37,882 nt of DNA from a virus. Below are positions 3,136 through 32,715 of the stretch, piece after piece. The position numbers and the translations under genes were made by a program. The DNA lies in IMG/VR virus record IMGVR_UViG_3300032050_000361, positions 1 through 37,882 of that record, one strand, 5' to 3'. How positions within the stretch are numbered: position 1 is the first letter of the stretch; each line of letters opens with the position of its first letter. The notes beneath the pieces were generated by a model. The model ran no database searches and was not told where the DNA came from. It saw only the letters and a list, made by a program, of their open reading frames with translations.

Positions 3136-3159
3136 CTTAATACTGTTTAAACAAAAGAA

Positions 3160-4618: not shown

Positions 4619-5000
4619 AAACTCACCAATCCAAATCAACTTCAAGACCAAGAAGGATGGCATGTTGATTAACCTTCGTGCTACCGATGGTGCTGAACTT
4701 GACTTACTACTTGACCAACTAACACAGCGCCTTGCTGCGCTTGTTGACCTTGAGAAAACTGTTGAAGGTATGGCAGTTATCAAGGATGCTTTCCCACAAT
4801 CAGCCGTTGTCGGCACTACCGCAGCACCACGCCCAGTACAACCAGCACCAGCAGCAGGCGCACCTGATTGCTCCTGTGGTGGCGGAGCAATGCGCTTCGT
4901 ACCAGCAGGTATTGCTAAGTCAACTGGTCGCCCATACAAGGCGTTCTATGCATGCCCTAAGCCACAGGGTCAGGCATGCCAGTACAAGGTGACTGTATAA
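4611..5000 (+). CDS. Zinc-ribbon protein, possibly a nucleic-acid-binding partner of the nuclease
   Basis: A 129-residue protein whose start overlaps the nuclease gene by 8 bp, with an AGGAG SD nine bases upstream. Residues 1-60 form a compact alpha/beta region ending in a coiled-coil-like helix (LDQLTQRLAALVDLEKTV). A proline/alanine linker (about 66-85) follows, then a zinc ribbon with C87, C89, C115 and C123 (CSCGG...FYACPKP...CQY). The ribbon resembles topoisomerase-type DNA-binding ribbons. Translational coupling to the nuclease suggests a joint role in DNA processing. No family name can be given. Confidence 0.65.
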   Translation: MSENSPIQINFKTKKDGMLINLRATDGAELDLLLDQLTQRLAALVDLEKTVEGMAVIKDAFPQSAVVGTTAAPRPVQPAPAAGAPDCSCGGGAMRFVPAGIAKSTGRPYKAFYACPKPQGQACQYKVTV

Positions 5001-5003
5001 ACA

Positions 5004-5783: not shown

Positions 5784-5914
5784 AGTTTATCCTTGCCATG
5801 TTTGCCTCGCTTGCAATACTTGTAGCAGTAGCAATCATTGTTGCTATGGCTGTTGTAGATGTTGTGATTGATTTTGATAACTATGAAAGCGAGGATGACG
5901 ATGACGAATTCTGA
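5780..5914 (+). CDS. Single-pass membrane micro-protein with acidic tail (44 aa)
   Basis: A GTG start (5780) overlaps the TGA of the helicase gene, and the frame runs to TGA 5912-5914. Residues of about 3-31 form one strongly hydrophobic helix (LAILVAVAIIVAMAVV), followed by a short acidic tail with five aspartates. Tight overlaps with both neighbours and the clean membrane-anchor profile support a real gene. Its job is unknown; a membrane tether for the replication complex would be speculation. Confidence 0.6.
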   Translation: MKFILAMFASLAILVAVAIIVAMAVVDVVIDFDNYESEDDDDEF

Positions 5915-6230
5915 TTGGGAACTTACAGAGGTTGGCAATGAGGGAAACCTTGTGGGTTCTTTAGATAGCCAAGATGTAGTTGTGCCTACCAAGACACTGA
6001 TTACAGACATGAAAGCGCAGTTGATGTTTTTACCGAAGAACTTTACTTGGACAGTGGGATGGAGAACTTATGTTTGGCGGAAGAAGGAAACGGGTCAATT
6101 CAAGGAACTCACAGATGAAGAATACAAAACGCTTCTTTCGGGGGGAACAGTCAATTACACCAGAGATGGTGGAGGAAGCAATCCAGCAGGCGAAACTTCC
6201 GAAGGAGTTGAAGGAAACTCTACTCAATGA
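5901..6230 (+). CDS. Hypothetical protein (109 aa)
   Basis: ATG 5901 is preferred because GAGG lies a suitable distance upstream; in-frame ATGs before it would overlap the previous gene further. The protein is polar, with a tryptophan-containing middle (FTWTVGWRTYVWRKK) and a glycine/serine/asparagine-rich disordered tail. No family is recognised. The next gene starts about 115 bp before this one ends, so the two share a long stretch in different frames. Confidence 0.55.
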   Translation: MTNSDWELTEVGNEGNLVGSLDSQDVVVPTKTLITDMKAQLMFLPKNFTWTVGWRTYVWRKKETGQFKELTDEEYKTLLSGGTVNYTRDGGGSNPAGETSEGVEGNSTQ

Positions 6231-6489
6231 ACTTCCAAACTTTGTGGAATATGTTGATGAAGCAACAAACAAAATCTTCAACCCATCTGCAATCTGGCTT
6301 GAGTCACTCCAGTTTGCTGACTATGTGGCGCAACTTGCTGCTCATCTCAGGGAAGAACACGGAGCAGAGTGCAGAGAAGAAGTCGCCGAAAAACTAATTC
6401 TTATGTCGGAGAACTTTAAAGAGTTAGCCGAGAACGCAATGACCATTATTGACCGCTCCGAGAAAAGGATGCATAACCATGGCGCATAG
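6115..6489 (+). CDS. Helical hypothetical protein (124 aa)
   Basis: The frame is open from 6070, but ATG 6115 has the better upstream AAGGA, so it is taken as the start; ATG 6166 is a later alternative. The protein is mostly alpha-helical and acidic (for example EEAIQQAKLPKELKETLL and ENFKELAENAMTIIDRSEKR), suggesting a helical bundle or coiled coil. It overlaps the previous gene by about 116 bp and the next by 11 bp. I do not recognise the family. Its place in a replication operon is the only functional hint. Confidence 0.55.
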   Translation: MKNTKRFFRGEQSITPEMVEEAIQQAKLPKELKETLLNELPNFVEYVDEATNKIFNPSAIWLESLQFADYVAQLAAHLREEHGAECREEVAEKLILMSENFKELAENAMTIIDRSEKRMHNHGA

Positions 6490-7216
6490 TAATAAAGAAA
6501 CTTTATCTATCATTTGGTGCGACAACGGTAACACTGATGGAAAGTTTACTGAGGGTTTGGTATACACACTTATCCATGCTCCAACAATAGGTGTGCCAGT
6601 TAATAACGCTATCCGTGTACAAGGCAATCAGATAGCACGCCAACGCCAAGCAGCCATAGAGATGTGGCAGAAGGTTAACACTGACTGGGCGTTATGGATT
6701 GACTCCGACATTGTGCTAACTAAGGAGATGCTCAAGACCCTATGGGATACGGCTGACAAAGTGGCACGCCCAGTAGTTAGCGGTGTTTACTTCATTAGCA
6801 AGGGCATGGAAAGTTCTTTGATGCAACCTATGCCATGTGTATTTAATGAAACTGGAAACCAATACGAGGTTAAGTATCTTCACCCTTTACCTAAGAACCA
6901 AGTAGTAAAGGTTGACAACGCTGGCATGGGATTAGTGCTAATGCACAAGAGCGTACTCAAAGGTTTAAACGAGAAGTTTCCTGATGACTTTTGGTTTGGT
7001 GAGAATAACGAGCGTGGTGAGAAGTTTATTGGTGAGGACATTGCCTTCTTCCGTAAGGTCAAGGCTGCGGGTATACCCGTACATGCACACACTGGTGTGA
7101 TTGCCAAGCACATGAAACGATTTTCATTTGACGATGCTTACTACAACTTGTATTGGGCAGCAGTAGAAGCAGCCGAAAGGAGAGAGCATGAGCCAGCAAA
7201 AGAGCAACAAGCGTAG
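6479..7216 (+). CDS. GT-A fold glycosyltransferase (GT2/Anp1-like)
   Basis: A 245-residue protein whose likely start is ATG 6479, with AAAAGGA about ten bases upstream; an earlier in-frame ATG would add ten residues. The nucleotide-sugar-binding DxD motif is seen as LWIDSDIVL (D75 and D77). Later come VDNAGMGLVLM and GEDIAFFRKVKAAG, the acceptor-side motif of GT-A enzymes. It probably transfers a sugar to DNA, to a virion or surface protein, or to a host molecule; its place among replication genes favours nucleic-acid modification but does not prove it. A GTTTAAAC copy inside encodes KGLNE. Confidence 0.75.
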   Translation: MAHSNKETLSIIWCDNGNTDGKFTEGLVYTLIHAPTIGVPVNNAIRVQGNQIARQRQAAIEMWQKVNTDWALWIDSDIVLTKEMLKTLWDTADKVARPVVSGVYFISKGMESSLMQPMPCVFNETGNQYEVKYLHPLPKNQVVKVDNAGMGLVLMHKSVLKGLNEKFPDDFWFGENNERGEKFIGEDIAFFRKVKAAGIPVHAHTGVIAKHMKRFSFDDAYYNLYWAAVEAAERREHEPAKEQQA

Positions 7217-7550
7217 AGGCGCAGCATGGGAGATTGACTTAGCCGATTGGTTTATGGAGCAAGGTTTAAACGCACAGCGTTTGCCTCGTGCAGGTCGTAA
7301 TGATGTGGGCGATGTGTATGTTCCAGGGGTTAACGGTGCCTATGTTGTAGAAGCAAAGGCTCCACGCCGTGATGGGCGCATTGACTTAAGTGGGTGGATA
7401 CGAGAAGCAGAGATTGAAGCAGAGAACTACCGAGTTGCTAAACGACTAGCCGTTGCACCTACGCCATTGGTAATTATCAAGGCAAGCAACAAGGGAGTTG
7501 GTGAAGCGTATGTCGTTCAGAAACTCAGTGATGTCCTCGCCAACCTCTAA
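7188..7550 (+). CDS. Holliday-junction-resolvase-like PD-(D/E)XK nuclease
   Basis: A 120-residue protein with the archaeal Hjc-type pattern: RRGAAWEIDLADWF (E15), then RLPRAGRNDVGDVYV (D42), then VVEAKAP (E55 and K57). These form the E...D...ExK active site of small resolvases. It would cut branched recombination or replication intermediates before packaging. It overlaps the glycosyltransferase gene by 29 bp and has a good GGAGAG-type SD. GTTTAAAC at 7264 encodes QGLNA. Another small PD-(D/E)XK nuclease type remains possible. Confidence 0.75.
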   Translation: MSQQKSNKRRGAAWEIDLADWFMEQGLNAQRLPRAGRNDVGDVYVPGVNGAYVVEAKAPRRDGRIDLSGWIREAEIEAENYRVAKRLAVAPTPLVIIKASNKGVGEAYVVQKLSDVLANL

Positions 7551-7908
7551 GCATGACATCGTTAAAGTACTTGAGCATTACGGATTTGTAATCTCTACCA
7601 ATCGTGGAGGTTGGCAATCAGTGCGTTGCGCCTTCCACAATGACCATGTAAAGTCGGCTCGTTTAAACATAGACAACGGTGGCTTTAGATGTTTTGCTTG
7701 CGACATGGCAGGCGATGTGTATTCACTTATTATGAAACGAGAAGGAGTTACCTATGGCGAGGCTCTCAAAATCGCAGAGAGAATTACTGGCGAAAGCAAC
7801 GGAGAACTACGAAGGAAACCTAAGCGAGGCGCTGCCGTACCTGACGGGTCGCGGTATAACAGAGGCGACAGCGCGTATGTTCCGCCTCGGCTTCGTGGCG
7901 AATCCTGA
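7510..7908 (+). CDS. dnaG (N-terminal half): Primase zinc-binding subunit (DnaG CHC2-type N-terminal half)
   Basis: The zinc site reads VRCAFHNDH...FRCFACDMAGDV, with C40, H43, C61 and C64 matching the CHC2 zinc domain of DnaG primases. The domain selects priming sites on single-stranded DNA. ATG 7510 or ATG 7531 can be the start; 7510 is given because GGGAG lies upstream. The reading frame continues for about 50 residues past the zinc domain as a basic tail. It overlaps the TOPRIM half by 155 bp in another frame, so the primase is encoded as two pieces. Confidence 0.8.
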   Translation: MSFRNSVMSSPTSKHDIVKVLEHYGFVISTNRGGWQSVRCAFHNDHVKSARLNIDNGGFRCFACDMAGDVYSLIMKREGVTYGEALKIAERITGESNGELRRKPKRGAAVPDGSRYNRGDSAYVPPRLRGES

Positions 7909-8374
7909 AGCGGGACACGAACCTTACCTTGGTAAGTTGGCTATCCCTTATTTAACTCCATCAGGTGTAGTTGACATCCGTTTCCGCAGTTTAAACAATG
8001 ATAGTGGACCAAAATATTTATCAAGACCAGGAGCAAGCACTCACATTTACAATGTTCAAGCATTGGATAAAGATGCTGACATGCTTGTGATTTGTGAAGG
8101 TGAACTAGATACCATCATTGCCACGCAAGTGGGCTTTGCTGCGGTTGGTTTGCCTGGGGCAAACAACTGGAAACCGTTTTACTCCCGTGTCCTTGCGGAT
8201 TGGGAAAAGATTATGTTGTTTTGTGATGGTGACAACGCAGGTAAAGAGATGGCTAAGACCCTCTCACGAGAATTGGACAATGTATTCCCCGTGTTCATGC
8301 CTGACAACTGCGATGTCAACGATGTGTTCCTTGCTGAAGGAGCAGAGGGATTGCGCAAACGAGTGGGTGTTTAA
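7754..8374 (+). CDS. dnaG (C-terminal half): Primase catalytic subunit (DnaG TOPRIM half)
   Basis: A 206-residue protein. An N-terminal DnaG-like linker (EALPYLTGRGITEATARMFRLGF) is followed by the TOPRIM domain, with E115 in LVICEGELDT and the DxD pair D158/D160 in MLFCDGDNAGKEM. These residues bind the catalytic metals for RNA primer synthesis. It starts inside the gene for the zinc half (155-bp overlap, +1 relative frame), so both chains are needed for a full primase unless a frameshift joins them. The TAA stop lies in GTTTAAAC 8369-8376. Confidence 0.85.
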   Translation: MARLSKSQRELLAKATENYEGNLSEALPYLTGRGITEATARMFRLGFVANPEAGHEPYLGKLAIPYLTPSGVVDIRFRSLNNDSGPKYLSRPGASTHIYNVQALDKDADMLVICEGELDTIIATQVGFAAVGLPGANNWKPFYSRVLADWEKIMLFCDGDNAGKEMAKTLSRELDNVFPVFMPDNCDVNDVFLAEGAEGLRKRVGV

Positions 8375-8377
8375 ACA

Positions 8378-8785
8378 GTGGCAAAGAACTCATCATTTGA
8401 CTTGGACTTTGGATACGGGCGAAAGGGTGAACAGTTAGTTGAAGAACTGCTAACCCAAGGCAAGAAGGTAGAAGTAAAGCGAGATAGAAAATGGTGGGTA
8501 ACCAACAATCTCTACATAGAAGTTGAGTGTTGGTACATGAAATCAAAATCATGGGAAGCATCGGGCGTGATGGTAACCGAAGCGGATTACTGGGCGTTCG
8601 TACTTGAACAGGGCGTACTTATGGTGCCAACCTCTCATGTTTTGTATGCGATTAAAGAGTTTGGTCGTGAGATTACTTGCGAGATTCCACCGAACAAGAG
8701 CAAGGGTTATCTCATCACCGTTGATGATTTGCTTATGGCAATGCGTAAACTAAAGAACGAGAAAGCAGAACCAAAAGATGGATAG
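8378..8785 (+). CDS. PD-(D/E)XK-like nuclease family protein (135 aa)
   Basis: The start is GTG 8378, one base after a GTTTAAAC copy that also holds the primase stop. No SD is visible, so translation is probably coupled. The N-terminus reads FDLDFGYGRKGEQLVEELL, then KVEVKRDRKWWVTNNLYIEVEC, with the E.K and IE elements typical of small phage PD-(D/E)XK nucleases. The rest is alpha/beta with no obvious further motif. A role in recombination or DNA degradation is likely; the exact substrate is unknown. Confidence 0.6.
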   Translation: MAKNSSFDLDFGYGRKGEQLVEELLTQGKKVEVKRDRKWWVTNNLYIEVECWYMKSKSWEASGVMVTEADYWAFVLEQGVLMVPTSHVLYAIKEFGREITCEIPPNKSKGYLITVDDLLMAMRKLKNEKAEPKDG

Positions 8786-9458
8786 CCAAGATAAAGTTTG
8801 GGAAACTATTTACGGGGTAGCCCGTCAAGTTGCAACCCGTGCTAATCGTATGCATCGTGGCATCGTAACCACTGATGATTTGTACCAGCACTTATCCTTG
8901 TGGGCATTAGAACACTGGCACAAGATAGAGCAGTGGACTGATGAAGAAAGCCTGAAGTTTAAACTGCGCAAAACTTTCTATAACGAAGCGCAAAAGTATG
9001 TTGCCAAAGAGCGCTCGCATTTATCTCGCTCACCAATCAACGATAGTTTTTATTACACACACGAGGTGTTACATGAACTATTGCGTGATGTATGGACACA
9101 CCAAGGTTGGACTGATACACCAGACATGAGTAGTGAATACATTTCTCGTAGTGCTAAGCCTTCCGAAGGTGGTAACCGCGTTGCTTTGCTGTCAGATGTT
9201 GCAGCAGGGCTTGACCGTTTAAACAAGGCAGACCAAGACTTACTGCGCATGCGTTATGCCAACGGTGGTATGGAGTTTGGTGCGCTTGCTGAATCTTATG
9301 GAACCACGGAGGAAGCAATGCGCAAGCGTGTCAAGCGTGCGATAGTTAAACTGCAAGACAGGTTAGGTGGCGAAGCACCAGTATGGCGTGGTCGTAGGCG
9401 CGTTCGTAGTAATGCAGAAGCACGAGCAGAAATTAGAAATCAGGAGGAGCAAGAGTGA
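8778..9458 (+). CDS. Sigma-70-like RNA polymerase sigma factor
   Basis: A 226-residue protein with two helical regions in the sigma layout. Residues of about 8-85 (TTDDLYQHLSLWALEH and LRKTFYNEAQKYVAKER) resemble region 2. Residues of about 145-195 (LNKADQDLLRMRYANGGMEF, then YGTTEEAMRKRVKRAIVKL) form a clear region-4 helix-turn-helix. A basic RGRRRVR tail follows. It could redirect host RNA polymerase to phage promoters, probably the late ones. It overlaps the previous gene by 8 bp. Confidence 0.72.
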   Translation: MDSQDKVWETIYGVARQVATRANRMHRGIVTTDDLYQHLSLWALEHWHKIEQWTDEESLKFKLRKTFYNEAQKYVAKERSHLSRSPINDSFYYTHEVLHELLRDVWTHQGWTDTPDMSSEYISRSAKPSEGGNRVALLSDVAAGLDRLNKADQDLLRMRYANGGMEFGALAESYGTTEEAMRKRVKRAIVKLQDRLGGEAPVWRGRRRVRSNAEARAEIRNQEEQE

Positions 9459-9991
9459 TTATTGGATTAAGCGGTTATGCCCGAAGCGGTAAGGATACAG
9501 TTGCTGAGTTGCTCGTATTGAACTACGGGTTTAAACGCATGGCGTTTGCTGATGGTATTCGTGAATCGTTGATTGCTTTGAATCCAATCTTGCATGATGG
9601 TCACCGTTTAAACGAGATAGTGCAGATGTACGGTTGGGAAGTAGCCAAGGCTAAAGATGAAGTGCGCCGTTTATTACAGGTTATGGGTACTGAAGTTGGT
9701 CGCCAACAAATCCACCAAGATGTATGGGTGTGGCGTTTGTTTAATCAAGTCAATGAAGGCGAGCGCATAGTCATACCTGATGTTCGTTTCCCTAATGAAG
9801 CACGCATGATTGAGGAGCGTGGCGGGGAAGTGTGGCGTATAAACAGACACAACCATGCAGCAGTCAATGACCATGTAAGTGAACGCGCTATGGATAATCA
9901 CATGTTTAAACGAGTGCTATACAACGATGGGACTCTTGATGATTTGGCTGAAGAAGTGTTCATGCTAATGCACAATGTTTTTAAACTATGA
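9455..9991 (+). CDS. Deoxynucleoside monophosphate kinase
   Basis: A 178-residue kinase with P-loop GYARSGKDT (7-15), the GxxxSGKD form of phage dNMP kinases and dephospho-CoA-kinase-like enzymes. VMGTEVGRQQIHQDVWVWRL and IVIPDVRFPNEARMIEERGGEVWRI match the conserved core of the phage T4 gp1-like family. It phosphorylates dNMPs for viral DNA synthesis. The start is GTG 9455, overlapping the TGA of the sigma-like gene, with an excellent GGAGGAG SD. It carries three GTTTAAAC copies (9529, 9606 and 9904). Confidence 0.85.
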   Translation: MIIGLSGYARSGKDTVAELLVLNYGFKRMAFADGIRESLIALNPILHDGHRLNEIVQMYGWEVAKAKDEVRRLLQVMGTEVGRQQIHQDVWVWRLFNQVNEGERIVIPDVRFPNEARMIEERGGEVWRINRHNHAAVNDHVSERAMDNHMFKRVLYNDGTLDDLAEEVFMLMHNVFKL

Positions 9992-10164
9992 CAGATGATG
10001 ATTTTATTGAGCGCTTTAACCTTCTTCATAAGGCGTTCATAGAAAAGTTTGTACAGAAAATTGAGTACTCTAAAATCACAGAAAAAGATGAGTGGTCTAA
10101 GGGTTTAAACGCTGGACTTGACTGGGCTATTCGTATTATTACTGGTGATAAATCGGCTTCATAA
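9988..10164 (+). CDS. Hypothetical protein (58 aa), last gene of the replication operon
   Basis: ATG 9988 overlaps the kinase stop (ATGA), and the frame ends at TAA 10162-10164 just before a bidirectional terminator. The protein is helical and charged (DDFIERFNLLHKAFIEKFVQK), ending GLDWAIRIITGDKSAS. The coupling and the precise fit before the terminator support it. No family is recognised. GTTTAAAC 10103-10110 encodes KGLNA in it. Confidence 0.65.
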   Translation: MTDDDFIERFNLLHKAFIEKFVQKIEYSKITEKDEWSKGLNAGLDWAIRIITGDKSAS

Positions 10165-10169
10165 ATAAA

Positions 10170-10208
10170 CAAGCACCGCTTTCGGGACTGGAACCTAGGC
10201 GGTGCTTG
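10170..10208. terminator. Bidirectional terminator between convergent early operons
   Basis: A 10-bp perfect stem, CAAGCACCGC (10170-10179) with GCGGTGCTTG (10199-10208), spans the gap between the plus-strand replication operon and the minus-strand accessory operon. The T tract is better on the minus strand (GTTTATTTAT follows), while on the plus strand only GTTCTAGTTT follows. It therefore mainly ends the minus-strand operon but should slow both. Confidence 0.8.
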
Positions 10209-10223
10209 CTGTTCTAGTTTAAC

Positions 10224-10583
10224 CTATCTTTGATTGTTGCTCAACGCAGGCTCGGTTAATCCCCACTTGCGTTTCTTGCGTTCTCTTTCACGCATTGCAG
10301 GTGTCATGCCACCCCAAATACCGTAGCGTTCGTGGGCTAGTCCCCACTCCCCGCAGGCTTCAATTACTGGGCAGCCTCCGCAGATTCTATTCCTGATGTA
10401 GCGTTCCTCATCGGGAGAAAACTTATCTTGTGGTGGATAAAATACTTCGGTAGGTACACCGTAGCATTTAGCATCTGTGAAGTTGCGTGGATTGTAAACA
10501 AGCGTGTAGTAAACACGGCTGTTTAAACGCAGCACCTTTCTGATTCTATGAAACCTTGGTTGTATTTGCGTATCCTGCTGCAT
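10224..10583 (-). CDS. whiB-like: WhiB-family Fe-S transcriptional regulator
   Basis: A 119-residue protein with the four WhiB cysteines: C40 (TDAKCYG), C68 and C71 (NRICGGC) and C77 (EACGEW). The GIWGGMT turn (88-94) and the basic REREKRKW-type tail follow. WhiB proteins bind a 4Fe-4S cluster and contact the primary sigma factor or DNA, and occur in actinobacteria and their phages. It may alter host transcription or superinfection immunity. GGAG seven bases upstream supports ATG 10583. It is the last gene of the minus-strand operon. Confidence 0.92.
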   Translation of the reverse strand: MQQDTQIQPRFHRIRKVLRLNSRVYYTLVYNPRNFTDAKCYGVPTEVFYPPQDKFSPDEERYIRNRICGGCPVIEACGEWGLAHERYGIWGGMTPAMRERERKKRKWGLTEPALSNNQR

Positions 10584-10731
10584 TTAAATACTCCATGACT
10601 GTGGCTGCCAGCATTTCAACGCGTACTGGTCTGATGATTACTGGCTGAGTGGGTACCTCTGCGTTGTAGGTTAGCCCACTGAGTATGAGGTGATTACGCA
10701 ATCCCTCTATTAGTTCTTGGTATTCGGTCAT
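10546..10731 (-). CDS. Hypothetical protein (61 aa)
   Basis: The start ATG at 10731 shares one base with the TAA of the upstream transglycosylase gene (TAATG), with GAGGG upstream; a start three codons earlier is possible. The protein begins with an amphipathic helix (TEYQELIEGLRNHLILSG) and ends with a second helix (VEMLAATVMEYLNAAGYA). It overlaps the WhiB gene by 38 bp. No family is recognised. Confidence 0.55.
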   Translation of the reverse strand: MTEYQELIEGLRNHLILSGLTYNAEVPTQPVIIRPVRVEMLAATVMEYLNAAGYANTTKVS

Positions 10732-11171
10732 TAGTACCACCCTCTTGATAGATTTGAACCGAGCGCTTTGCAGATGTTGCCTCCGTATTTTCTTTGTATG
10801 TACGCAAGCCCTGCTTCCACTTGTACGAACCCGTCATCAGTTCGTTTAAACCCTACGAGTTTCCATGTTGCTGGCATGAATTGTGCAATGCCATAGGCAC
10901 CTGACTTACGGTTAAGTGAGCGTGGATTCCAGTTACTCTCGCGTGTCCATAGTGTGTACAAGCAAGTCCACTGTTCTAGTTTGCCCATTTGTGTAAGCAT
11001 GTCTACTGCATAGCGTTGGTATTCGTTCTCGTAAAAGGCAACCACTGTGCCTGCCACTTTGCCATCATTAACCAATGGTGTGAGAGGCACATGGTCTTTA
11101 TCAAAAAACCTGTCGTCTATTGCTACCGATGCAGTAACAATGAGGAAGATAGCGACTAATCGTTTAAACAT
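10731..11171 (-). CDS. Secreted lytic transglycosylase (SLT-like lysozyme fold)
   Basis: A 146-residue protein with an N-terminal signal peptide or anchor (FKRLVAIFLIVTASVA). The catalytic domain has LYTLWTRESNWNPRSLN (E78, the general acid), then GAYGIAQFMPATWKLV and GLAYIQRKYGG, the pattern of SLT and Rpf/lysozyme-like domains. It would cleave glycan strands outside the membrane. Its place in an early-type accessory operon, far from the lysis cassette, is odd. The start codon overlaps GTTTAAAC 11162-11169, giving MFKR. Confidence 0.8.
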   Translation of the reverse strand: MFKRLVAIFLIVTASVAIDDRFFDKDHVPLTPLVNDGKVAGTVVAFYENEYQRYAVDMLTQMGKLEQWTCLYTLWTRESNWNPRSLNRKSGAYGIAQFMPATWKLVGFKRTDDGFVQVEAGLAYIQRKYGGNICKALGSNLSRGWY

Positions 11172-11605
11172 TATGCTTCCTTCTCCTGTTTAGCACTGAT
11201 GTTTCGCACCAGCGTAAGGATAAATTCGGGCAGGTCTGTGTCGTAACCCTCATCATCTGAGCGCCCAACAATCACCGCGTTACCCACAAGGTGTGGTGTG
11301 TTACCAAACAAGAAAGATAAGGCGCTCGCCATAGGATTTAATGGCAGGTTCTTTAACAACCCCTCATCATCTACATAGGCACACGCAATCTCTTGTCCGT
11401 TGTAATCGTATAAACGCACCGCAGTAATCCAACCGTCAATAGCACTTTGGTAATCTGCTAGTTGTTTAAACAACCCTTCGGTATGCGTTCCATTAGGTCG
11501 GATAACTACTCCTCGCACTGGTGATTGTTCCACCGCATTTGAATTGTTGTATTCAACGAAGGCGTTTATCACATCTTTCATAATTTTTTCAGGATTCTTA
11601 GTCAT
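11171..11605 (-). CDS. DUF3846-like protein (144 aa)
   Basis: The middle and C-terminal parts (ITAVRLYDYNGQEIACAYVDDEGLLKNLPLNPMAS..., then HLVGNAVIVG) match my memory of the DUF3846 pattern: a short beta-rich module of phage and plasmid proteins with a GNAVI motif. The function of that family is not established. The stop/start of this gene and the next share a base. GTTTAAAC 11464-11471 encodes LFKQL. Confidence 0.6.
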   Translation of the reverse strand: MTKNPEKIMKDVINAFVEYNNSNAVEQSPVRGVVIRPNGTHTEGLFKQLADYQSAIDGWITAVRLYDYNGQEIACAYVDDEGLLKNLPLNPMASALSFLFGNTPHLVGNAVIVGRSDDEGYDTDLPEFILTLVRNISAKQEKEA

Positions 11606-11735
11606 TTTTTTTCTCCAATACTTTCCAAGATAGTTGTGTATGAATTGGGTATGAAACTCGCGTTACCTCGTCTATGATTTCATAGAAGTCGTAGGTATCA
11701 GGAAATTCAAAACTCATGGTAATTGTTTTAGCCAT
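11598..11735 (-). CDS. Hypothetical micro-protein (45 aa)
   Basis: ATG 11735-11733 has a GAGGAAAG SD, and the frame ends at TAA 11600-11598, overlapping the next start by 8 bp. The sequence is polar, with an acidic aromatic stretch (FEFPDTYDFYEIIDEV) and a C-terminal LSWKVLEKKND. Overlaps at both ends support a coding role. No family is recognised. Confidence 0.55.
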   Translation of the reverse strand: MAKTITMSFEFPDTYDFYEIIDEVTRVSYPIHTQLSWKVLEKKND

Positions 11736-11868
11736 TACTTTCCTCCTCTAATAGTCCCTCTAATAAATTAAGTATTCCCGTCACTTGTTCAGGCTCATCT
11801 CCCTCTCGCCAAGGGTATGATGCCAAGAAATTGTATTGAGTTTTGAGTAGTTCTTTATTTAAGTTCAC
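11728..11868 (-). CDS. Hypothetical micro-protein (46 aa)
   Basis: The preferred start is GTG 11868, because GAGGAAAG lies at the right distance and the GTGA overlap with the upstream stop is typical of this operon; an ATG 16 codons earlier would overlap the upstream gene. The protein is helical with an acidic end (GILNLLEGLLEEESNG). It overlaps the next gene by 8 bp. No family is recognised. Confidence 0.5.
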   Translation of the reverse strand: MNLNKELLKTQYNFLASYPWREGDEPEQVTGILNLLEGLLEEESNG

Positions 11869-12029
11869 TCGCTTTCCTCCATTTCCATGTCGTCTATTAA
11901 CCATTGGTCTACGCAATCGCTACACCGTAGGTCTAAGTTAAGTCCGTCTAATTCGTAGACATCGTTACAGTCTATGCACTTAGCAGGGTTCTTTATTCGT
12001 GGCGCTTTCCATACTTTGCGTTTAAACAT
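11865..12029 (-). CDS. Zinc-ribbon micro-protein (54 aa)
   Basis: Residues C18/C21 and C36/C39 (KCIDCND...LRCSDCVD) form a two-knuckle zinc ribbon, preceded by a basic segment (FKRKVWKAPRIK) and followed by an acidic tail. The start ATG at 12029 overlaps GTTTAAAC 12020-12027, and the same octamer holds the stop of the upstream gene in another frame. A longer upstream frame exists, but the clean zinc-ribbon unit and the junction favour this start. Confidence 0.65.
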   Translation of the reverse strand: MFKRKVWKAPRIKNPAKCIDCNDVYELDGLNLDLRCSDCVDQWLIDDMEMEESE

Positions 12030-12156
12030 GTGCCACCTCGCAGTCGTATTGAGGCGCTGCATTATTGGGGCAATCAAAAACAAAACACTCCGCTTCGGTG
12101 TGCTTGTCGCAATCGCGCCAGCAGTTCTCGTGGTTCTCTCCATGCTTGTAACTCAT
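12022..12156 (-). CDS. Cysteine/histidine-rich micro-protein (44 aa)
   Basis: ATG 12156 lies two bases after the upstream stop, and the frame ends at the TAA inside GTTTAAAC 12020-12027. It has cysteines at 12, 16, 24, 29 and 39 and four histidines, in the order NCWRDCDKH, ECFVFDCP, DCEVAH. This probably makes a small metal-binding fold. It overlaps the next start by 8 bp. No known family is recognised, and the short length limits certainty. Confidence 0.55.
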   Translation of the reverse strand: MSYKHGENHENCWRDCDKHTEAECFVFDCPNNAAPQYDCEVAHV

Positions 12157-12158
12157 GT

Positions 12159-12293
12159 TCAAACTCCCAACGCTACTTGTTCGCCTGATTTATCAAACTC
12201 TGCTCCGCAGTCTAGGCAAACTATTATCCCGCAGTTGCATTTATTATTTTCAGTGAGAGTATCTAGGCTTTCAGTCCAGCCATGTTCGCACAT
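12159..12293 (-). CDS. Zinc-knuckle micro-protein (44 aa)
   Basis: ATG 12293 directly follows a GTTTAAAC copy (12294-12301) that contains the stop of the upstream gene. Cysteines at 2, 19, 21, 26 and 29 (KCNCGIIVCLDCG) and H4 look like a small treble-clef or ribbon. No SD is seen before the ATG, so translation may depend on termination-reinitiation at the octamer. No family is recognised. Confidence 0.58.
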   Translation of the reverse strand: MCEHGWTESLDTLTENNKCNCGIIVCLDCGAEFDKSGEQVALGV

Positions 12294-12295
12294 GT

Positions 12296-12523
12296 TTAAA
12301 CACCTGACCTTTCTTGATTCATTTTGTTGAGCATGTCTTGCAGTTGTTTGTCTGCTTCTTGCGCACCCTCAATAAATTTACCGTCACCCTGATAGGCATA
12401 GTCCCACGATTTGGTTTCGGTATCATAGACAGTTCCATTTGGAAAGGCTTGTTCCTCCGTGTCAATGTCTAACTGCCATTTGGTTCCGTCAAAATAAATT
12501 GCGTAAGAGAATTGTTTAGTCAT
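12296..12523 (-). CDS. Hypothetical protein (75 aa)
   Basis: ATG 12523 lies immediately after GTTTAAAC 12524-12531, and the TAA stop lies inside GTTTAAAC 12294-12301, so both gene borders are octamer copies. The protein begins with a beta-hairpin-like segment (FSYAIYFDGTKWQLDID), is acidic in the middle, and ends with a helix (EADKQLQDMLNKMNQE). No family is recognised. Confidence 0.6.
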   Translation of the reverse strand: MTKQFSYAIYFDGTKWQLDIDTEEQAFPNGTVYDTETKSWDYAYQGDGKFIEGAQEADKQLQDMLNKMNQERSGV

Positions 12524-12626
12524 GTTTAAACTCTTTCATACATTTCCCGCAGATTACTCCGCGTTCTGTACTGAACAAGTTTGATGAGTTGCGATACTCT
12601 CCACAATCTGAACAACGCTCTCTCAT
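12516..12626 (-). CDS. Zinc-ribbon micro-protein (36 aa)
   Basis: MRERCSDCGEY begins a two-knuckle zinc ribbon with C5/C8 and C26/C29 (ICGKC). The upstream AGG at 7-8 bases and the ATGA overlap with the previous gene support ATG 12626. The end overlaps the next start (ATGACTAA). GTTTAAAC 12524-12531 encodes EFKH at its C-terminus. A second frame is open here but codes no recognisable pattern. Such single-ribbon proteins often bind nucleic acid or act as protein adaptors. Confidence 0.6.
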   Translation of the reverse strand: MRERCSDCGEYRNSSNLFSTERGVICGKCMKEFKHD

Positions 12627-12781
12627 TTTTGAACCTCATGTTTAAACTCCCTGCCTACCTCAACCTCCGAGGCTATTCGTTCAACGGCATCGTCAAGTTG
12701 TTTAAACAATTCTTTGCGTTGGTCAAGACTTAGGTGTTTCACCATGTCGTCTGTGATTTCTGCTTTCCATAGGCTGCTCAT
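12623..12781 (-). CDS. Helical hypothetical protein (52 aa)
   Basis: ATG 12781 shares a base with the TAA of the upstream gene, and the TGA overlaps the next ATG. The protein is one long charged helix (LSLDQRKELFKQLDDAVERIASEVEV), suggesting a coiled coil. Two GTTTAAAC copies (12640 and 12700) encode EFKH and LFKQL within 52 codons. No family is recognised. Confidence 0.55.
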   Translation of the reverse strand: MSSLWKAEITDDMVKHLSLDQRKELFKQLDDAVERIASEVEVGREFKHEVQK

Positions 12782-12958
12782 TTAGAAAGGTCTTTCTACT
12801 GAGTTCTCAAGTTTCTTGAGAAGTTCTAAGTTGCGCTTGCGTAGGTAGGCGTTGTACTTATTCAAGCGTGCGTTATCTCTCATGGCGAGAGCCAGTACGA
12901 TTAACGCGCTGAGCAGGGCTATGATTATGCCTGCCATTTCTCCAGTCCCTAGATACAT
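12782..12958 (-). CDS. Small membrane protein (58 aa)
   Basis: ATG 12958 has AGGAG ten bases upstream and is preferred to an internal ATG seven codons later. Residues of about 9-26 are a transmembrane helix (GIIIALLSALIVLALAM), and the rest is a basic, leucine-rich helix (YLRKRNLELLKKLENS). It resembles small one-pass phage membrane proteins of unknown role. The stop abuts the next start. Confidence 0.6.
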   Translation of the reverse strand: MYLGTGEMAGIIIALLSALIVLALAMRDNARLNKYNAYLRKRNLELLKKLENSVERPF

Positions 12959-12971
12959 TTGGTTTGTTCTC

Positions 12972-13184
12972 CTATCGTTTCATTGTTTGGATTAGGTTTT
13001 TGTATTGCTCGCGTACACTTTGCTTGTGTTCGTGTTTGTTTGGTATCCCTGCTTCCCTGCATAGTTCGGCATAGATAATTTGAAAGTCGTCACGGTGGAG
13101 TTCTCTCAAGATGTGTTCCGCTTTGTTAAACAAGCGGGCGCGTAGTTGGTTTATCTCTTGTTGTGTTAGTTCGTTTTCTGTCAT
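12972..13184 (-). CDS. Helical hypothetical protein (70 aa)
   Basis: The first gene after a 230-bp control region, so its promoter probably lies within 13185-13280. The protein is fully helical and charged (NELTQQEINQLRARLFNKAEHILREL), with a single cysteine. It contains a near-match (GTTAAAC) to the octamer. There is no strong SD before ATG 13184. No family is recognised. Confidence 0.55.
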   Translation of the reverse strand: MTENELTQQEINQLRARLFNKAEHILRELHRDDFQIIYAELCREAGIPNKHEHKQSVREQYKNLIQTMKR

Positions 13185-13269
13185 GTCGCAAGTTTCTCAT
13201 ACGCATAAAATAAAAGTCAAGCATTTAATAAAGATAATAAAAAAATTTTTCTGCGTGTTGTTTAAACGC

Positions 13270-13329
13270 TTGACAAGAAGTTACTTTGTGGTAGCGTGAC
13301 ATGTCTGGTGTTTAAACAGTTGGTATAAT
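13270..13329 (+). promoter_or_regulatory. Candidate plus-strand promoters inside the minus-strand block
   Basis: TTGACA (13270-13275), a 16-bp spacer and TAGCGT (13292-13297, matching the actinobacterial TANNNT -10) form one candidate. An extended -10, TGGTATAAT (13321-13329), follows 24 bases later without a clear -35. No plus-strand gene lies downstream, so the product would be a short RNA or an antisense transcript ending near the hairpin at 13379-13400. GTTACT at 13280 starts a degenerate form of the 16-bp palindrome seen at 16207 and 16313. Confidence 0.35.
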
Positions 13330-13370
13330 TTCTGGCAGTCACAGCACCAGAGTGCTAACGATGTTTAAAC

Positions 13371-13400
13371 AAAAGAAAAACCCCCGCCGCAGCAGGGGTT
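13371..13400 (-). terminator. Intrinsic terminator after the glutamine amidotransferase gene
   Basis: On the minus strand AACCCCTGC pairs with GCGGGGGTT around a TGCG loop (plus coordinates 13392-13400 and 13379-13387, one G-U pair). TTTCTTTT follows. It lies 17 bases downstream of the amidotransferase stop and splits the minus-strand block into two transcripts. Confidence 0.8.
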
Positions 13401-13416
13401 CTCTCTGTTTAAACTA

Positions 13417-14271
13417 TTAGAAGGGTAGTTCTTCCTTATCCTCCCACCACTTTGCATAGCGGTCTGCCTTGCGTGTGTTGTAATGACCTAGATAATCCAA
13501 GTCCGTGGCATACGATGAGGCGGGGCGATAGTTGCTCCACCAATTTGTTGGTTCGTATTTGCGAGGCGTGAAAGTCTGATACTCGGTGATGTGACCGTCA
13601 CGCACTTTGAAATACTCACCCTCTGCTGCCTCATGCAGCCAGTCAATTTCGCAGTCGCTCATAATGGCTGCGTTCTCTACTGTCTGCTGCGTTGAGCCGT
13701 AGAATAGGGAGCCTGTGTTGGCTTGCGCTATCCACAACGGTGATGAGTTAACGCGTGCAAGGTGCAGGGTTCGTGGGTCATGCTGCCCAATCCATGCGAG
13801 CGCTGCCGTGCCGTATAACTCGGCGAGGATTTCCCAAGGCTTGCCGTCTGCAAACGCAATGAGCGCAGCAGCAGCCTCTGAATCTACCTGACCGACACGA
13901 GGCACACCTAGTTGTTTAAACAATTCGGTATCGTTGCTGATGTGTCCGTTGTGTGTGAGTACGATTTTACCGCGTGGGATTGGGTGGTTGTTGTTGTTGT
14001 TAGTTGGTGAGCCTTGTGTAGCCCAACGCGTGTGCAAGATTGCAGTGGTTGCGCCTGCACATAGGCGCTCGCCTGCCTTTGGCACGAACTTTGTCGCGCT
14101 GGCTGCTGCCTTGCTGATTACACGCCTGCCGTTGCGTGGGTTAATCCATGCAGCGCCCGTGGCGTGTTGTCCACGGTGTTCAATGTCGTAGAGCATCTGC
14201 CCTGCGAGGTCTGATGTTGTAATGCGTGAGTAATGCTTAGGGTCTAAGCAATAGCCTGCGATTCCGCACAT
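13417..14271 (-). CDS. Class II glutamine amidotransferase (Ntn hydrolase)
   Basis: A 284-residue protein starting MCGIAGY, with C2 as the N-terminal nucleophile after Met removal. HTRWATQGSPT (R82), THNGHISN (N108 and G109, oxyanion hole) and GQVDSEA (D130) complete the glutamine-binding pocket. It releases ammonia from glutamine. No synthetase or sugar-isomerase domain is attached, so the ammonia acceptor must lie on another protein. The amidoligase at 15055-15858 in the same operon direction is the obvious partner candidate. SD GGAG is eight bases upstream. Confidence 0.88.
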   Translation of the reverse strand: MCGIAGYCLDPKHYSRITTSDLAGQMLYDIEHRGQHATGAAWINPRNGRRVISKAAASATKFVPKAGERLCAGATTAILHTRWATQGSPTNNNNNHPIPRGKIVLTHNGHISNDTELFKQLGVPRVGQVDSEAAAALIAFADGKPWEILAELYGTAALAWIGQHDPRTLHLARVNSSPLWIAQANTGSLFYGSTQQTVENAAIMSDCEIDWLHEAAEGEYFKVRDGHITEYQTFTPRKYEPTNWWSNYRPASSYATDLDYLGHYNTRKADRYAKWWEDKEELPF

Positions 14272-14332
14272 TTATTTTTCTCCAGTCTGTAGGTGTTCGG
14301 TTAATGGGTGAAGTGTATCACATAGGGCGGGA

Positions 14333-14530
14333 TTATCTGCAACCTTTGCAATCGGTACGCAAACAATCGCCACACATGACGGTGTTTAAACGCTCGCAAT
14401 CATCTGACCACGGGCATGTTGGTTGGTGCGCTGCGTAGAAATTTTCCCCGCAGTTTAAACAGTTGTCGTTCTTGTCGTAGCGTTTCCCGTATTGGTTCCA
14501 CGCTGCAATCTCTTGGCGTGATAGGCTCAT
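14333..14530 (-). CDS. Cysteine-rich zinc-binding protein (65 aa, eight Cys)
   Basis: Cysteines lie at 24, 27, 39, 45, 53, 56, 61 and 64 (NCLNCGENF, PTCPWSDDC, MCGDC, DCKGC), probably binding two zinc ions. Its start overlaps the stop of the upstream membrane micro-protein and has GTTTAAAC one base upstream. Two further GTTTAAAC copies encode ERLNT and CLNCG, the second within a zinc knuckle. No family is recognised. Confidence 0.62.
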   Translation of the reverse strand: MSLSRQEIAAWNQYGKRYDKNDNCLNCGENFYAAHQPTCPWSDDCERLNTVMCGDCLRTDCKGCR

Positions 14531-14631
14531 CGTTTAAACGCCTTTCGTGCGAAGTAAACGGTGAGCGTGAGCAGTAACAACACGCGCCCGTCTATCCAAA
14601 CGAGCCACCACGGGAGCAGATTTTCGTACAT
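14527..14631 (-). CDS. Membrane micro-protein (34 aa)
   Basis: ATG 14631 follows GTTTAAAC 14632-14639 directly, and the TGA overlaps the next ATG. The protein is almost entirely one hydrophobic helix (LLPWWLVWIDGRVLLLLTLTV) with a basic end (FARKAFKR). A positive-inside arrangement with the C-terminus in the cytoplasm is likely. Precise coupling on both sides supports it despite the length. Confidence 0.52.
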   Translation of the reverse strand: MYENLLPWWLVWIDGRVLLLLTLTVYFARKAFKR

Positions 14632-14633
14632 GT

Positions 14634-14948
14634 TTAAACACCTGCGCTCTCGTCTAGGCGTTCCATGATTTCCTTGGCGATTGGATAATACGCATCTAAT
14701 CCCCACCCGTTGCAGAGTTGGGCAATGAGTAGCGTTCCAACGCTGGCGGTGTAATCGCTTGGGCGTTGCTTCATGGCTTCCGCGATTTTATTCTCCACAA
14801 ATTCCTCAATAAAGAGGGCGAGTTGGTAGGTGTCGTTGTTTAAACGCATCGCCTTGTTTCTGATTTCTTCATAGGCTGAGCCTGTGTTATCTAATACGAG
14901 CAGCAAGTCACGAGCGAATTGCTGGCGTGCGGTTGGTTCTGTGTTCAT
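14634..14948 (-). CDS. Hypothetical protein (104 aa)
   Basis: The frame is open from 15023, but ATG 14948 with GGA six bases upstream is preferred, because the upstream segment overlaps a GC-rich structured region. The protein is helical (RQQFARDLLLVLDNTGSAYEEI, then ALFIEEFVENKIAEAMK) and ends GWGLDAYYPIAKEIMERLDESAGV. The TAA lies in GTTTAAAC 14632-14639. No family is recognised. Confidence 0.55.
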   Translation of the reverse strand: MNTEPTARQQFARDLLLVLDNTGSAYEEIRNKAMRLNNDTYQLALFIEEFVENKIAEAMKQRPSDYTASVGTLLIAQLCNGWGLDAYYPIAKEIMERLDESAGV

Positions 14949-15054
14949 GGTTTCCAGTCCGTTTCTGTTTAAACGCAACGGTCTTTCCGTGGCGTTCGTG
15001 CCTGCCGTGGGGATTGCACCCACGCTTAGCCCACTAGGGGCAGGCTGCCCGCGC
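14949..15054 (-). other. Structured intergenic RNA segment in the minus-strand operon
   Basis: The plus-strand sequence shows GCCTGCC (15000-15006) paired with GGCAGGC (15039-15045), enclosing a GTGGG/CCCAC hairpin (15007-15011/15019-15023) with a 7-nt loop. Next to it, AACGCAACGG and CCGTGGCGTT (about 14971-14997) form a 10-bp stem with one mismatch. GGGCA/TGCCC offers a competing fold. The inner hairpin looks like a tRNA T-arm, but there is no D-arm or anticodon arm. It may be an attenuator, leader or RNA-processing element. Confidence 0.45.
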
Positions 15055-15858
15055 TTACCCGTTTAGACGGGCTGCGCGACCCTTGAGCCAGTCCCCCGTG
15101 CTGGCGTTGAGGTGATTGCCTGACACGAGCGTGTCAATGAGTAGGGCAGAATTCTCAACGCTTGGCGCGGTTGGGTTGCTCCATGGGTTGAGGTGTTCTT
15201 GGGTTGTTAAATCCACGCCCTGCACGCTGGCTTGGATTAAGCCCGCAATAAACTGGCTCCATGCGATTGCCTTAACACCGTTGAGCGTGCCTTGGTGTAG
15301 GCGGATTTCCACGGTGCCGTGGCGGTGCATGGATTCAAGATTGAGCGAGGTGTAGCGGTCACCGTTAAACGCGCCCATGTTGTCGTTTAAACTGTGGGAG
15401 GCTTGGCGCTCCGCAAAATCACGGGTGAGAATTCTGCAATAGCGGTTGTTTAAACGGCTAGGCGCAACAAGCGCTGCGATTGCGGAGTGCATGGAGTAAT
15501 AGTTGAGGATAAAACGGGCGAGATTCTCCGCGTTACGGCTAACGGGCGCTCCCATGCCTGCATCAAAAGCGTTTAAACCGATGTGGACATGAAAGCCCGT
15601 GGCACGGTCAACCCGTGCGCCTGCATTTTTGAGCGCCTTGGTGACTTTATGAGCCTCGTTTAAACGGGCAGGGTTGAGGATTGGGCTAACAACCTCCGCA
15701 CCGTTGGACACGCTGCCGTCATAAACGGCTTTCCAGTTGTTGTCGGTTTCATGTTGAGCGCGTGGCAGATTGCAGACAATCCCCGCAGCGTTTAAACGCT
15801 CCGCAGCGCGTTGTGGTGAGATTCCTTGAACCTCAAATTCCATGCCAAAAGTTGTCAT
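15055..15858 (-). CDS. Amidoligase-family (COOH-NH2 ligase) enzyme
   Basis: The start is taken at ATG 15858 (TTFGMEFEVQ), with AGAGG upstream; 11 further residues are possible. Conserved elements of the Amidoligase_2 family are visible: FGMEFE (E7/E9), WKAVYDGSV (D48) with GAEVVSPIL (E55), GFHVHIG (H90/H92), NNRYC (R139) and VEIRLHQGTLN (E184/R186). These enzymes use ATP to join a carboxylate to an amine, as in glutamine-synthetase-like ligases. The substrate is unknown. Five GTTTAAAC copies (15385, 15448, 15571, 15658 and 15790) lie in this one gene, all read as LN. Confidence 0.82.
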   Translation of the reverse strand: MTTFGMEFEVQGISPQRAAERLNAAGIVCNLPRAQHETDNNWKAVYDGSVSNGAEVVSPILNPARLNEAHKVTKALKNAGARVDRATGFHVHIGLNAFDAGMGAPVSRNAENLARFILNYYSMHSAIAALVAPSRLNNRYCRILTRDFAERQASHSLNDNMGAFNGDRYTSLNLESMHRHGTVEIRLHQGTLNGVKAIAWSQFIAGLIQASVQGVDLTTQEHLNPWSNPTAPSVENSALLIDTLVSGNHLNASTGDWLKGRAARLNG

Positions 15859-15860
15859 GA

Positions 15861-16028
15861 TTAGCGAGCCTCTCTCATTGGTTGGTTGCATGCAGGGCAG
15901 ATTGGGCTGCCGTAGGTGATAAGGGTTGAGCGAGAGATTCTTGCTATGTAACCGTCAACCTCGCAGAGAACCTTTTTTAAACGGGTTGTCTGCTTGGTTG
16001 CAGTTGGTGTTGCTGCTTGTCGTGCCAT
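15861..16028 (-). CDS. Small zinc-ribbon protein (55 aa), first gene of the minus-strand operon
   Basis: ATG 16028 has a strong GGAGG SD; a longer upstream frame would run through the leader hairpin. The basic N-terminus (ATPTATKQTTRLKKVL) is followed by LCEVDGYIARISRSTLITYG and ICPACNQPM (C22, C44 and C47). It is probably a metal-binding DNA- or RNA-contacting protein. Its RBS is partly enclosed by the hairpin at 16039-16068. Confidence 0.62.
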   Translation of the reverse strand: MARQAATPTATKQTTRLKKVLCEVDGYIARISRSTLITYGSPICPACNQPMREAR

Positions 16029-16038
16029 TGTCTTGCCT

Positions 16039-16068
16039 CCAGTCGTTGGGCGCCGTGTGCGCCACTGG
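16039..16068 (-). promoter_or_regulatory. Leader hairpin overlapping the RBS of the minus-strand operon
   Basis: GGCGC/GCGCC (16049-16053/16059-16063) with loop CGTGT is enclosed by CCAGT/ACTGG (16039-16043/16064-16068). On the transcript the ACTGG arm shares its GG with the SD GGAGG of the gene starting at 16028. Folding would therefore partly hide the RBS. Confidence 0.45.
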
Positions 16069-16206
16069 TGAAAGTGTGACATAGAGTTTAAACAATTACA
16101 AGCACCCAAAAAACAGCGTAAAATAAGGGTTTTTTGAGTGTTTTGCCGTTTCTTGATTCTCACGGTTTACCGATGCAGCAGGCTCAACGGCTGCCAGTTT
16201 TGCTAA

Positions 16207-16222
16207 GTTACTCAAGAGTAAC
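16207..16222. promoter_or_regulatory. Operator-like palindrome, copy 1
   Basis: GTTACTCAAGAGTAAC has 7-bp arms around AA and shares the form GTTACT-N4-AGTAAC with the copy at 16313-16328. The start-to-start distance is 106 bp, close to ten helical turns. It is probably the binding site of a dimeric helix-turn-helix regulator; no such gene is recognised in the window. Confidence 0.5.
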
Positions 16223-16312
16223 AAGGCTAAAGTCATTGTTTTACACTGGTTTTATGCAATTTGGTAAAACGCGGTTGTTAGATTTTCCCGTGTTTTATTG
16301 AGTTTTTTGCAT

Positions 16313-16328
16313 GTTACTGGTGAGTAAC
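16313..16328. promoter_or_regulatory. Operator-like palindrome, copy 2, filling a possible promoter spacer
   Basis: GTTACTGGTGAGTAAC repeats the palindrome of 16207. TTGCAT (16307-16312) directly precedes it and TTATCG (16329-16334) directly follows, so the 16-bp palindrome would fill the spacer of a rightward -35/-10 pair. Binding there would block RNA polymerase. The -10 match is weak. Confidence 0.45.
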
Positions 16329-16375
16329 TTATCGGGCGCTGCTTGTGCATTTGGTTGAACTTTCAACTATCTGCG

Positions 16376-16389
16376 ATTGTGCGCACAAT
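16376..16389. promoter_or_regulatory. Perfect 14-bp palindrome
   Basis: ATTGTGCGCACAAT is a perfect palindrome without a spacer, distinct from GTTTAAAC and from the GTTACT sites, lying nine bases before GTTTAAAC 16398. It looks like a dimer-binding operator. No second copy was noticed. Confidence 0.4.
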
Positions 16390-16404
16390 GCTTGAGTGTT
16401 TAAA

Positions 16405-16575
16405 CGGTGCAGGCTGCGGGGCGCGGGCGATAGATACACGCGCAAGATTGTGCGAGTAAAAGCCCGCCTGCCTGCCAGTGTTGCAGCCAAGCCAAGCAAT
16501 GCAGTGCCAAGCCTAGCCGTGCAGCCTTGCAAGTAGCAGTGCGAGGTGCTTGTCAGCACCCCAGGGTTTTTAAAA
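16405..16575 (+). ncRNA. Candidate structured RNA in a GC-rich island
   Basis: About 160 bp of clearly GC-richer sequence lies in AT-richer surroundings and has no credible reading frame. It contains GCGGGC/GCCCGC long-range pairing, CGCA/TGCG, several GCAGCC and CCAAGCC-type short repeats, and a closing hairpin GGTGCT-TGTC-AGCACC (16545-16560) followed after a few bases by GTTTTTAAAA. The strand is a guess based on that end. It could instead be an origin or a packaging element. Confidence 0.3.
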
Positions 16576-28956: not shown

Positions 28957-28958
28957 TC

Positions 28959-30914: not shown

Positions 30915-30954
30915 CTAACCCATACATCAACCAATCACCAGGAGGTGAACCTAC

Positions 30955-32127: not shown

Positions 32128-32141
32128 TTGATTGACTCTGA

Positions 32142-32177: not shown

Positions 32178-32197
32178 TGAGTCCATTAGGAGGCTTA

Positions 32198-32706: not shown

Positions 32707-32715
32707 GGAGGAATC

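Follow-up and report, generated by a model that had tools for sequence, protein, structure and literature searches.

A dispersed palindromic octamer array in an actinobacterial phage and a SprT-derived zinc ribbon as its candidate reader

Introduction

Cluster A mycobacteriophages such as L5 and Bxb1 carry approximately 30 short sites scattered through the genome, some of which lie in promoters and most of which do not; the sites are 13 bp long, asymmetric and oriented with transcription, and the repressor is a monomer with two DNA-binding domains, including a helix-turn-helix (PMC6550527, PMC9283540). Here we describe a dispersed array of the eight-letter palindrome GTTTAAAC in IMG/VR virus record IMGVR_UViG_3300032050_000361 (positions 1 to 37,882; this whole stretch of 37,882 nucleotides is referred to hereafter as the window), which comes from an aquatic actinobacterial phage. 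The candidate reader of the array is a small zinc-ribbon protein, encoded by the same phage, that appears to derive from SprT-like proteins. The array resembles that of Cluster A in that many short sites lie across a phage genome far above chance (47 copies in the window, where 0.98 are expected), and in that the consensus diverges by clade (GTTTAAAC, GTCTAAAC or TGTCTTAAGACA here), a divergence that in Cluster A is matched to the reader. It differs in having 8-bp palindromes or quasi-palindromes, mostly intragenic in the window, and a proposed SprT-derived zinc ribbon as reader; moreover, the window site is a perfect palindrome, and orientation with transcription is biased only in one clade of relatives (clade B, 24:3) and weakly in named phages.

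Two further systems share features with the array. The R4-type repressor–stoperator system of Streptomyces phages also relies on dispersed binding sites in actinophages, although these are described as intergenic (PMC10276819). HIP1 of cyanobacteria is an iterated octameric palindrome that lies mostly in coding DNA and gives way to alternate palindromes in some lineages (PMC4390886); it is chromosomal and methyltransferase-linked, whereas the array described here is viral, is regionally confined in the window family and goes with a zinc ribbon. Within the ribbon family, the fuller members match SprT-like (Spartan) proteins (PF10263) and carry the zinc ribbon at their C-terminal end; the window member has neither the metallopeptidase domain nor an HExxH motif. 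SprT/Spartan (SPRTN) proteins are DNA–protein crosslink proteases, and we know of no description of a SprT protein binding a phage array in a sequence-specific manner. An earlier note on this DNA, made from the sequence alone, had named no system that uses the octamer, and the open-access literature searched likewise yielded no published system of this kind, whether for the octamers or for SprT in connection with a repressor, a zinc ribbon or Arthrobacter.

Results

A single octamer is enriched and regionally confined

Exact counting places 38 of the 47 copies of GTTTAAAC within 6963–16405 and nine outside this block (at 181, 2188, 3145, 21569, 25997, 26068, 32301, 34041 and 34946), with none in 3782–6962, so that the counts and borders given in the earlier note are correct. 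Its claim of an excess far above composition likewise stands: the order-2 Markov expectation is 0.98 copies for the whole window and 0.44 for the block, and the runner-up among all 256 palindromic octamers, GCTGCAGC, is present in only seven copies. When 47 sites were placed at random in 5000 simulations, no 9.4-kb stretch ever contained more than 27 of them, against 38 observed. One-mismatch neighbours of GTTTAAAC are hardly enriched in the block, and the entire octamer is therefore under selection. Intragenic sites (27 in the block) occupy solely the two stop-free frames (16 read as F-K, 11 as L-N), and the remaining 11 are intergenic or overlap gene ends. Spacing is more regular than random between 6.9 and 12.5 kb (coefficient of variation 0.36 versus 0.92, for a subset picked after looking) and in the arrays of two relatives (0.65 versus about 0.95 for random placement; p 0.0085 and 0.021).

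The motif switches in concert between clades

Among 80 relatives collected by their terminase, those close to the window carry 2.4–5.3 copies of GTTTAAAC per kb upstream of the terminase and 0–0.37 downstream, in the late genes, so that late regions nowhere reach an equal density. Other relatives have no GTTTAAAC, and the same region holds GTCTAAAC (the GC-richer clade C) or TGTCTTAAGACA (clade B). A clade-C genome (G012) contains 36 copies of GTCTAAAC and zero of GTTTAAAC, and its sites orthologous to window positions 6963, 7264, 7661, 7989 and 9217 read GTCTAAAC. That many sites have switched together argues for a trans-acting reader. In clade B (L040, L047, L051–L071 and L084), 20–30 copies of TGTCTTAAGACA lie upstream of the terminase, mainly confined to minus-strand genes and often overlapping a ribosome-binding site or start codon (TTAAGACAGGAG); this array is paired with a different SprT-like protein, whose ribbon has TNL in place of TRL. 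Several genes common to clades A and C are not in B. The contig of one clade-B locus (G013, of L053) measures 76,622 bases, roughly double the genomes of its relatives, and is probably a concatemer or a misassembly.

The zinc ribbon is shared with unrelated array phages

Arrays of GTTTAAAC also emerged, by a pattern scan, in phages not closely related to the window, above all in a group with a primase-helicase and AAA and VWA proteins (hereafter T-type), whose members carry 37–45 copies genome-wide over 37–38 kb; nearly every longer locus with a T-type primase has the array or a variant of it. The motif is common to phages of 29–71% GC. The earlier note had the array confined mainly to the early/accessory half; confinement to early genes is true of the window clade and not of the other phages with the same ribbon, where the motif is genome-wide.

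Comparison of window-family with T-type protein families by hhalign (1651 of 4896 pairs) gave a single strong match besides the primase, between the ribbon family and a SprT-like protein (probability 99.84, E 1.9e-30, 173 columns). The T-type partner is a SprT-like protein with a C-terminal zinc ribbon, of which the window gene (15861–16034, minus strand, start codon at 16028) keeps the ribbon only. Its 55-residue product (MARQAATPTATKQTTRLKKVLCEVDGYIARISRSTLITYGSPICPACNQPMREAR) would thus be the ribbon remnant of a SprT-like, Spartan-type protein. An unrelated, AT-rich array phage (L135) has the ribbon/SprT family too, and alignment of the window, clade C, T-type, L135 and L150 ribbons reveals six invariant residues: R16, K19, C22, R30, G40 and P42. 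Pfam PF10263 (SprT-like) is matched by the proteins of L135 (E 2.9e-9), clade B (2.1e-7) and the T-type group (1.2e-4, below cut-off), and in named phages these proteins are annotated as SprT-like proteases. A sequence search against solved structures returned nothing relevant.

The fusion of the ribbon to a SprT-like domain in most families raises the alternative that the octamers are loading sites, or landing pads, for a Spartan-type metalloprotease that would strip or cleave DNA-bound or crosslinked proteins such as host silencers, defence proteins or a stalled polymerase. Among the 28 T-type proteins, 15 have an intact HExxH motif, as do 15 of the 16 from clade B, and the genome-wide spread of sites in T-type and Arthrobacter phages would suit such a role. 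However, the active site is gone from all 21 longer window-family members, about half of the T-type proteins have also lost HExxH, and in the window, where the array is densest, the SprT domain is deleted altogether. The persistence of arrays without HExxH or the protease domain argues that the ribbon is what matters and that protease action is not needed, and we consider protease loading fairly unlikely.

Arrays follow the ribbon residues

We set the prediction that phages with this ribbon should have GTnTAAAC arrays, and chose named phages solely by a match to the ribbon/SprT protein. All ten with an intact ribbon are enriched, nine clearly so and one (ep3) at the borderline; observed and expected counts of GTnTAAAC are 23/0.15 in Zeta1847, 16/0.08 in Percival, 20/0.33 in Yang, 28/0.67 in Reedo, 27/0.06 in Araceli, 14/0.5 in 4A, 8/0.29 in R5C, 7/0.68 in Mica, 4/0.62 in Persinger and 7/3.13 in ep3. 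The top 8-mer is GTGTAAAC, GTTTAAAC or an overlapping 8-mer in Zeta1847, Percival, Yang, Reedo, Araceli, 4A, R5C and Mica. Phages with no detectable ribbon gave 0/0.21 (Immanuel3), 2/0.2 (Manuel), 4/6.5 (PJN03), 0/0.03 (Pag-Yong1) and 10/8.2 (hattifnatt); the first two are Streptomyces Beephvirinae relatives of the window, and neither has an array.

Loss of the ribbon residues goes with loss of the array. SprT proteins without the T-R-[ML] residues are found in Armstrong (0/0.02), Dismas (0/0.01) and Bordetella phage MW2 (1/0.23), none of which has an array: RSGKSIK replaces TRM and S replaces the second R in the first two, and the ribbon of MW2 is ruined. Where N replaces R, in clade B and Actinoplanes phage phiAsp2, GTnTAAAC shows no excess and other repeated motifs are present. 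The phiAsp2 genome (L510, NC_005885), whose SprT protein (Pas43) resembles that of clade B, has 14 copies of TGAAGTGTCA where 0.02 would be expected, and Microbacterium phage Armstrong (L518) has a TACAATAGAAGTAT-type repeat in six copies against about 0 expected. Contigs collected with nothing but the peptide K[KTP]Q[GS]TRM[LK] make up 16 groups unrelated to one another at the DNA level, and in 10 of these there are at least four sites and a several-fold excess. Taken across these comparisons, phages as distant as those of Arthrobacter and Streptomyces mostly carry a like array when they encode the ribbon protein.

These comparisons bear on a second alternative, in which the true reader of the octamer is some other phage protein, with which the SprT ribbon only co-occurs. 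Candidates are a T-type ribbon-helix-helix (RHH) protein with a conserved MRFPSG tail (for example, L349:5146–5475, minus strand), a sigma-like DNA-binding protein encoded near SprT in several named actinophages, and the WhiB or sigma-like protein of the window. The RHH protein could be a second reader in its own group. It was not found in the window family, however, and Armstrong and Dismas retain the neighbouring DNA-binding protein while having neither the ribbon residues nor the array; no single one of these candidates turned up in every array phage, and we regard a different reader as unlikely.

Other candidates were rejected individually. The GntR/HutC-type consensus is GTnTAnAC, and no GntR domain was found among the window proteins scanned; WhiB and the sigma factor occur in all clades and do not track the motif; the RHH protein is strong in T-type phages and was not found in the window family. 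Of three proteins present in A and C and not in B (DUF3846, a class-II glutamine amidotransferase and an amidoligase), amidoligase and DUF3846 were not found in near-complete T-type genomes. Primases are distantly related in all of these phages, but the motif tracks the ribbon across different primases.

Site placement suggests operators and possible roadblocks

In Zeta1847, 18 of 22 sites are no more than 40 bp from an annotated gene start, where 2.7 would be expected, and several fall inside the spacer of a promoter of the form TTGCGC-17-TATGAT. For 19 of 20 window-family ribbon genes (13% expected) and in seven of ten named phages (3% expected), the 100 bp ahead of the gene include a site, the pattern expected of a self-regulated DNA-binding protein. 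In the window this is the copy at 16086–16093, approximately 58 bp upstream of the ribbon gene start, which we propose as an autoregulatory operator. Promoter embedding as a rule in the window was rejected, since the one case seen is matched by 1.02 expected; the window sites lie mostly within genes and are evenly spaced, so that any silencing there would need to act by roadblock, in the manner of stoperators.

The best explanation of these observations, to which we give about an even chance, is a ribbon-read silencing array of operator and stoperator-like sites. The copies of GTTTAAAC, in the generic form GTnTAAAC, would be binding sites of the phage-encoded SprT-derived zinc ribbon, read through its conserved T-R-[ML]..K..C segment and the arginine of Y-[IV]-[AV]-R. 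Bound protein would silence transcription in two ways: sites within or next to promoters, among them the one upstream of the ribbon gene, would serve as operators, and at intragenic sites the protein would stand as a roadblock in the path of elongating RNA polymerase. In the window phage the early region would thereby be shut down; for temperate phages of Arthrobacter and Microbacterium that share this reader, the protein would supply the missing immunity repressor. Judged separately, direct binding of the octamer by the ribbon protein is probable, and silencing as the function of the array could go either way. The reader is most likely a SprT-derived zinc ribbon and not a helix-turn-helix protein, the class to which the earlier note had looked for a binding protein. 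Among the roles that the note had listed, stoperator-like sites are now favoured over a partition or nucleoid array and over replication sites, because sites lie in promoters in some phages, upstream of the reader gene and scattered through operons.

Several observations weigh against silencing by the ribbon. An AT-rich, virus-like contig of 36.6 kb (L597/L598, the contig of L120) has 12 copies of GTTTAAAC, seven of them in approximately 350 bp, and no detectable SprT; six of the 16 peptide-collected groups have few or no sites (1–3 in five, none in one). Some of the ten named phages are interrelated, leaving fewer than ten effective independent cases, and because the profile comparison covered only part of the family pairs, further shared proteins may exist. 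Among 31 long T-type loci, 29 encode the RHH protein, which tracks arrays with a TTTAAA core. A nearby upstream site accompanies only one of 21 T-type SprT genes, and the window sites are mostly intragenic rather than promoter-linked. When structure models of the T-type SprT protein and the window ribbon (predicted local distance difference test scores of 92.3 and 75.8) were compared with the PDB, no match reached an E value under 0.04, and the predicted ribbon has no significant match among solved structures. Finally, no integrase was recognised in the window, and lysogenic repression is therefore not obviously needed there.

Site clustering raises a third alternative, replication, with origin-like iterons and dispersed sites for a primase or initiator. 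Directly 3′ of the T-type primase-helicase gene stand clusters of 3–6 copies of GTTTAAAC at a spacing of about 45 bp (L132, 4084–4276; L123, 2262–2452; and others), and the window has an early-region array with a four-site cluster beside an AT-rich tract. The triple-site clusters of T-type phages were, however, selected by the search pattern itself, the window and T-type primases are only distantly related, octamers with one mismatch show hardly any enrichment in the window, and it is the ribbon that the motif follows where primases differ between phages, which together make a replication role very unlikely. A host-wide or methylation-driven palindrome of the HIP1 kind, for which the replacement of HIP1 by other palindromes in some lineages offers a precedent (PMC4390886), is scarcely credible given that the array of the window family keeps to particular parts of the genome, that scanning of window proteins revealed no methyltransferase among those covered, that the motif spans so wide a range of GC content, and that the 117 bacterial and archaeal stretches among the three-site-pattern matches listed show CRISPR-like or local repeats and no dispersed array.

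Genome layout and individual sites in the window

The window encodes WhiB, a sigma-like protein, a split primase, a DnaB-like helicase, RusA, a Cas4-like nuclease, terminase and portal; in Pfam and PHROG scans of 20 window proteins, WhiB and the sigma factor were the only transcription regulators. Its nearest named relatives by terminase are Streptomyces Beephvirinae (49–50% identity), which have a similar layout and in which the terminase starts within 0.7 kb of the left end. Because of that position, the array border at 16.4 kb is probably the end of the packaged genome; the sharp border described in the earlier note is thus real, and it probably coincides with a genome end.

Copies in the block 6963–16405 start at 6963, 7264, 7661, 7989, 8369, 8957, 9217, 9529, 9606, 9904, 10103, 10521, 10844, 11162, 11464, 12020, 12294, 12524, 12640, 12700, 13260, 13310, 13363, 13407, 13914, 14384, 14453, 14532, 14632, 14838, 14967, 15385, 15448, 15571, 15658, 15790, 16086 and 16398. 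Four of these form an intergenic cluster at 13260–13414 (spacing 50, 53 and 44 bp) between two minus-strand operons, adjoining the AT-rich tract; the copy at 13310 stands 6 bp upstream of TGGTATAAT, which resembles an extended −10 element. Others border coding regions: 8369–8376 runs across the stop codon of the gene for the Toprim primase and ends 1 bp short of the next start (8378), and 12294–12301 abuts the start codon of the minus-strand gene 12159–12293 (GTTTAAACATG), as the copies at 12524 and 14632 abut a start codon in the same way. Of the outlying sites, 181–188 forms part of the loop in a hairpin (TGAGCA...TGCTCA TTTTT) that resembles a terminator and lies where a late operon ends, 2188–2195 lies over the stop codon of a late gene, and 3145–3152 stands immediately ahead of the terminator-like hairpin closing the late genes; the six at 21569–34953 are the sparse late-region sites.

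The zinc-finger and Toprim halves of the primase are encoded by overlapping plus-strand genes (7513–7908 and 7754–8374), as in Streptomyces Beephvirinae. The minus-strand genes for a class-II glutamine amidotransferase (13417–14271) and an Amidoligase_2 protein (15055–15858) are kept together in clades A and C and not in B, and are possibly a peptide-ligation pair.

Discussion

Cluster AZ Arthrobacter phages form stable, homoimmune lysogens (lysogens of Powerpuff are immune to AZ phages) and have no identifiable repressor (PMC8758107, PMC11600132); these phages and the EH Microbacterium phages are temperate or predicted to be temperate (PMC8758107, PMC11600132). Yang, Reedo, Zeta1847 and Percival fall within or close to the AZ and EH groups and have both the ribbon and the array. 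This co-occurrence in phages of a type without an identifiable repressor makes the SprT-like ribbon protein a candidate for the missing AZ repressor.

More broadly, and tentatively, SprT-type zinc ribbons may be a new class of sequence-specific phage DNA readers that, with GTnTAAAC arrays, would form a silencing system in unrelated phages of Actinobacteria, Proteobacteria and others and would serve as the immunity repressor of AZ and EH phages; where the protease domain is kept, it may act as an inducer or release switch. We think this wider proposal somewhat more apt to fail than to hold. SprT-like protease is a frequent phage annotation of unknown role, and the link to a DNA code gives it a testable function. 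If the proposal is true, stoperator-like control would gain a zinc-ribbon class of reader, and GTTTAAAC, GTGTAAAC, GTCTAAAC and TGTCTTAAGACA would be natural specificity variants usable for working out its recognition code.

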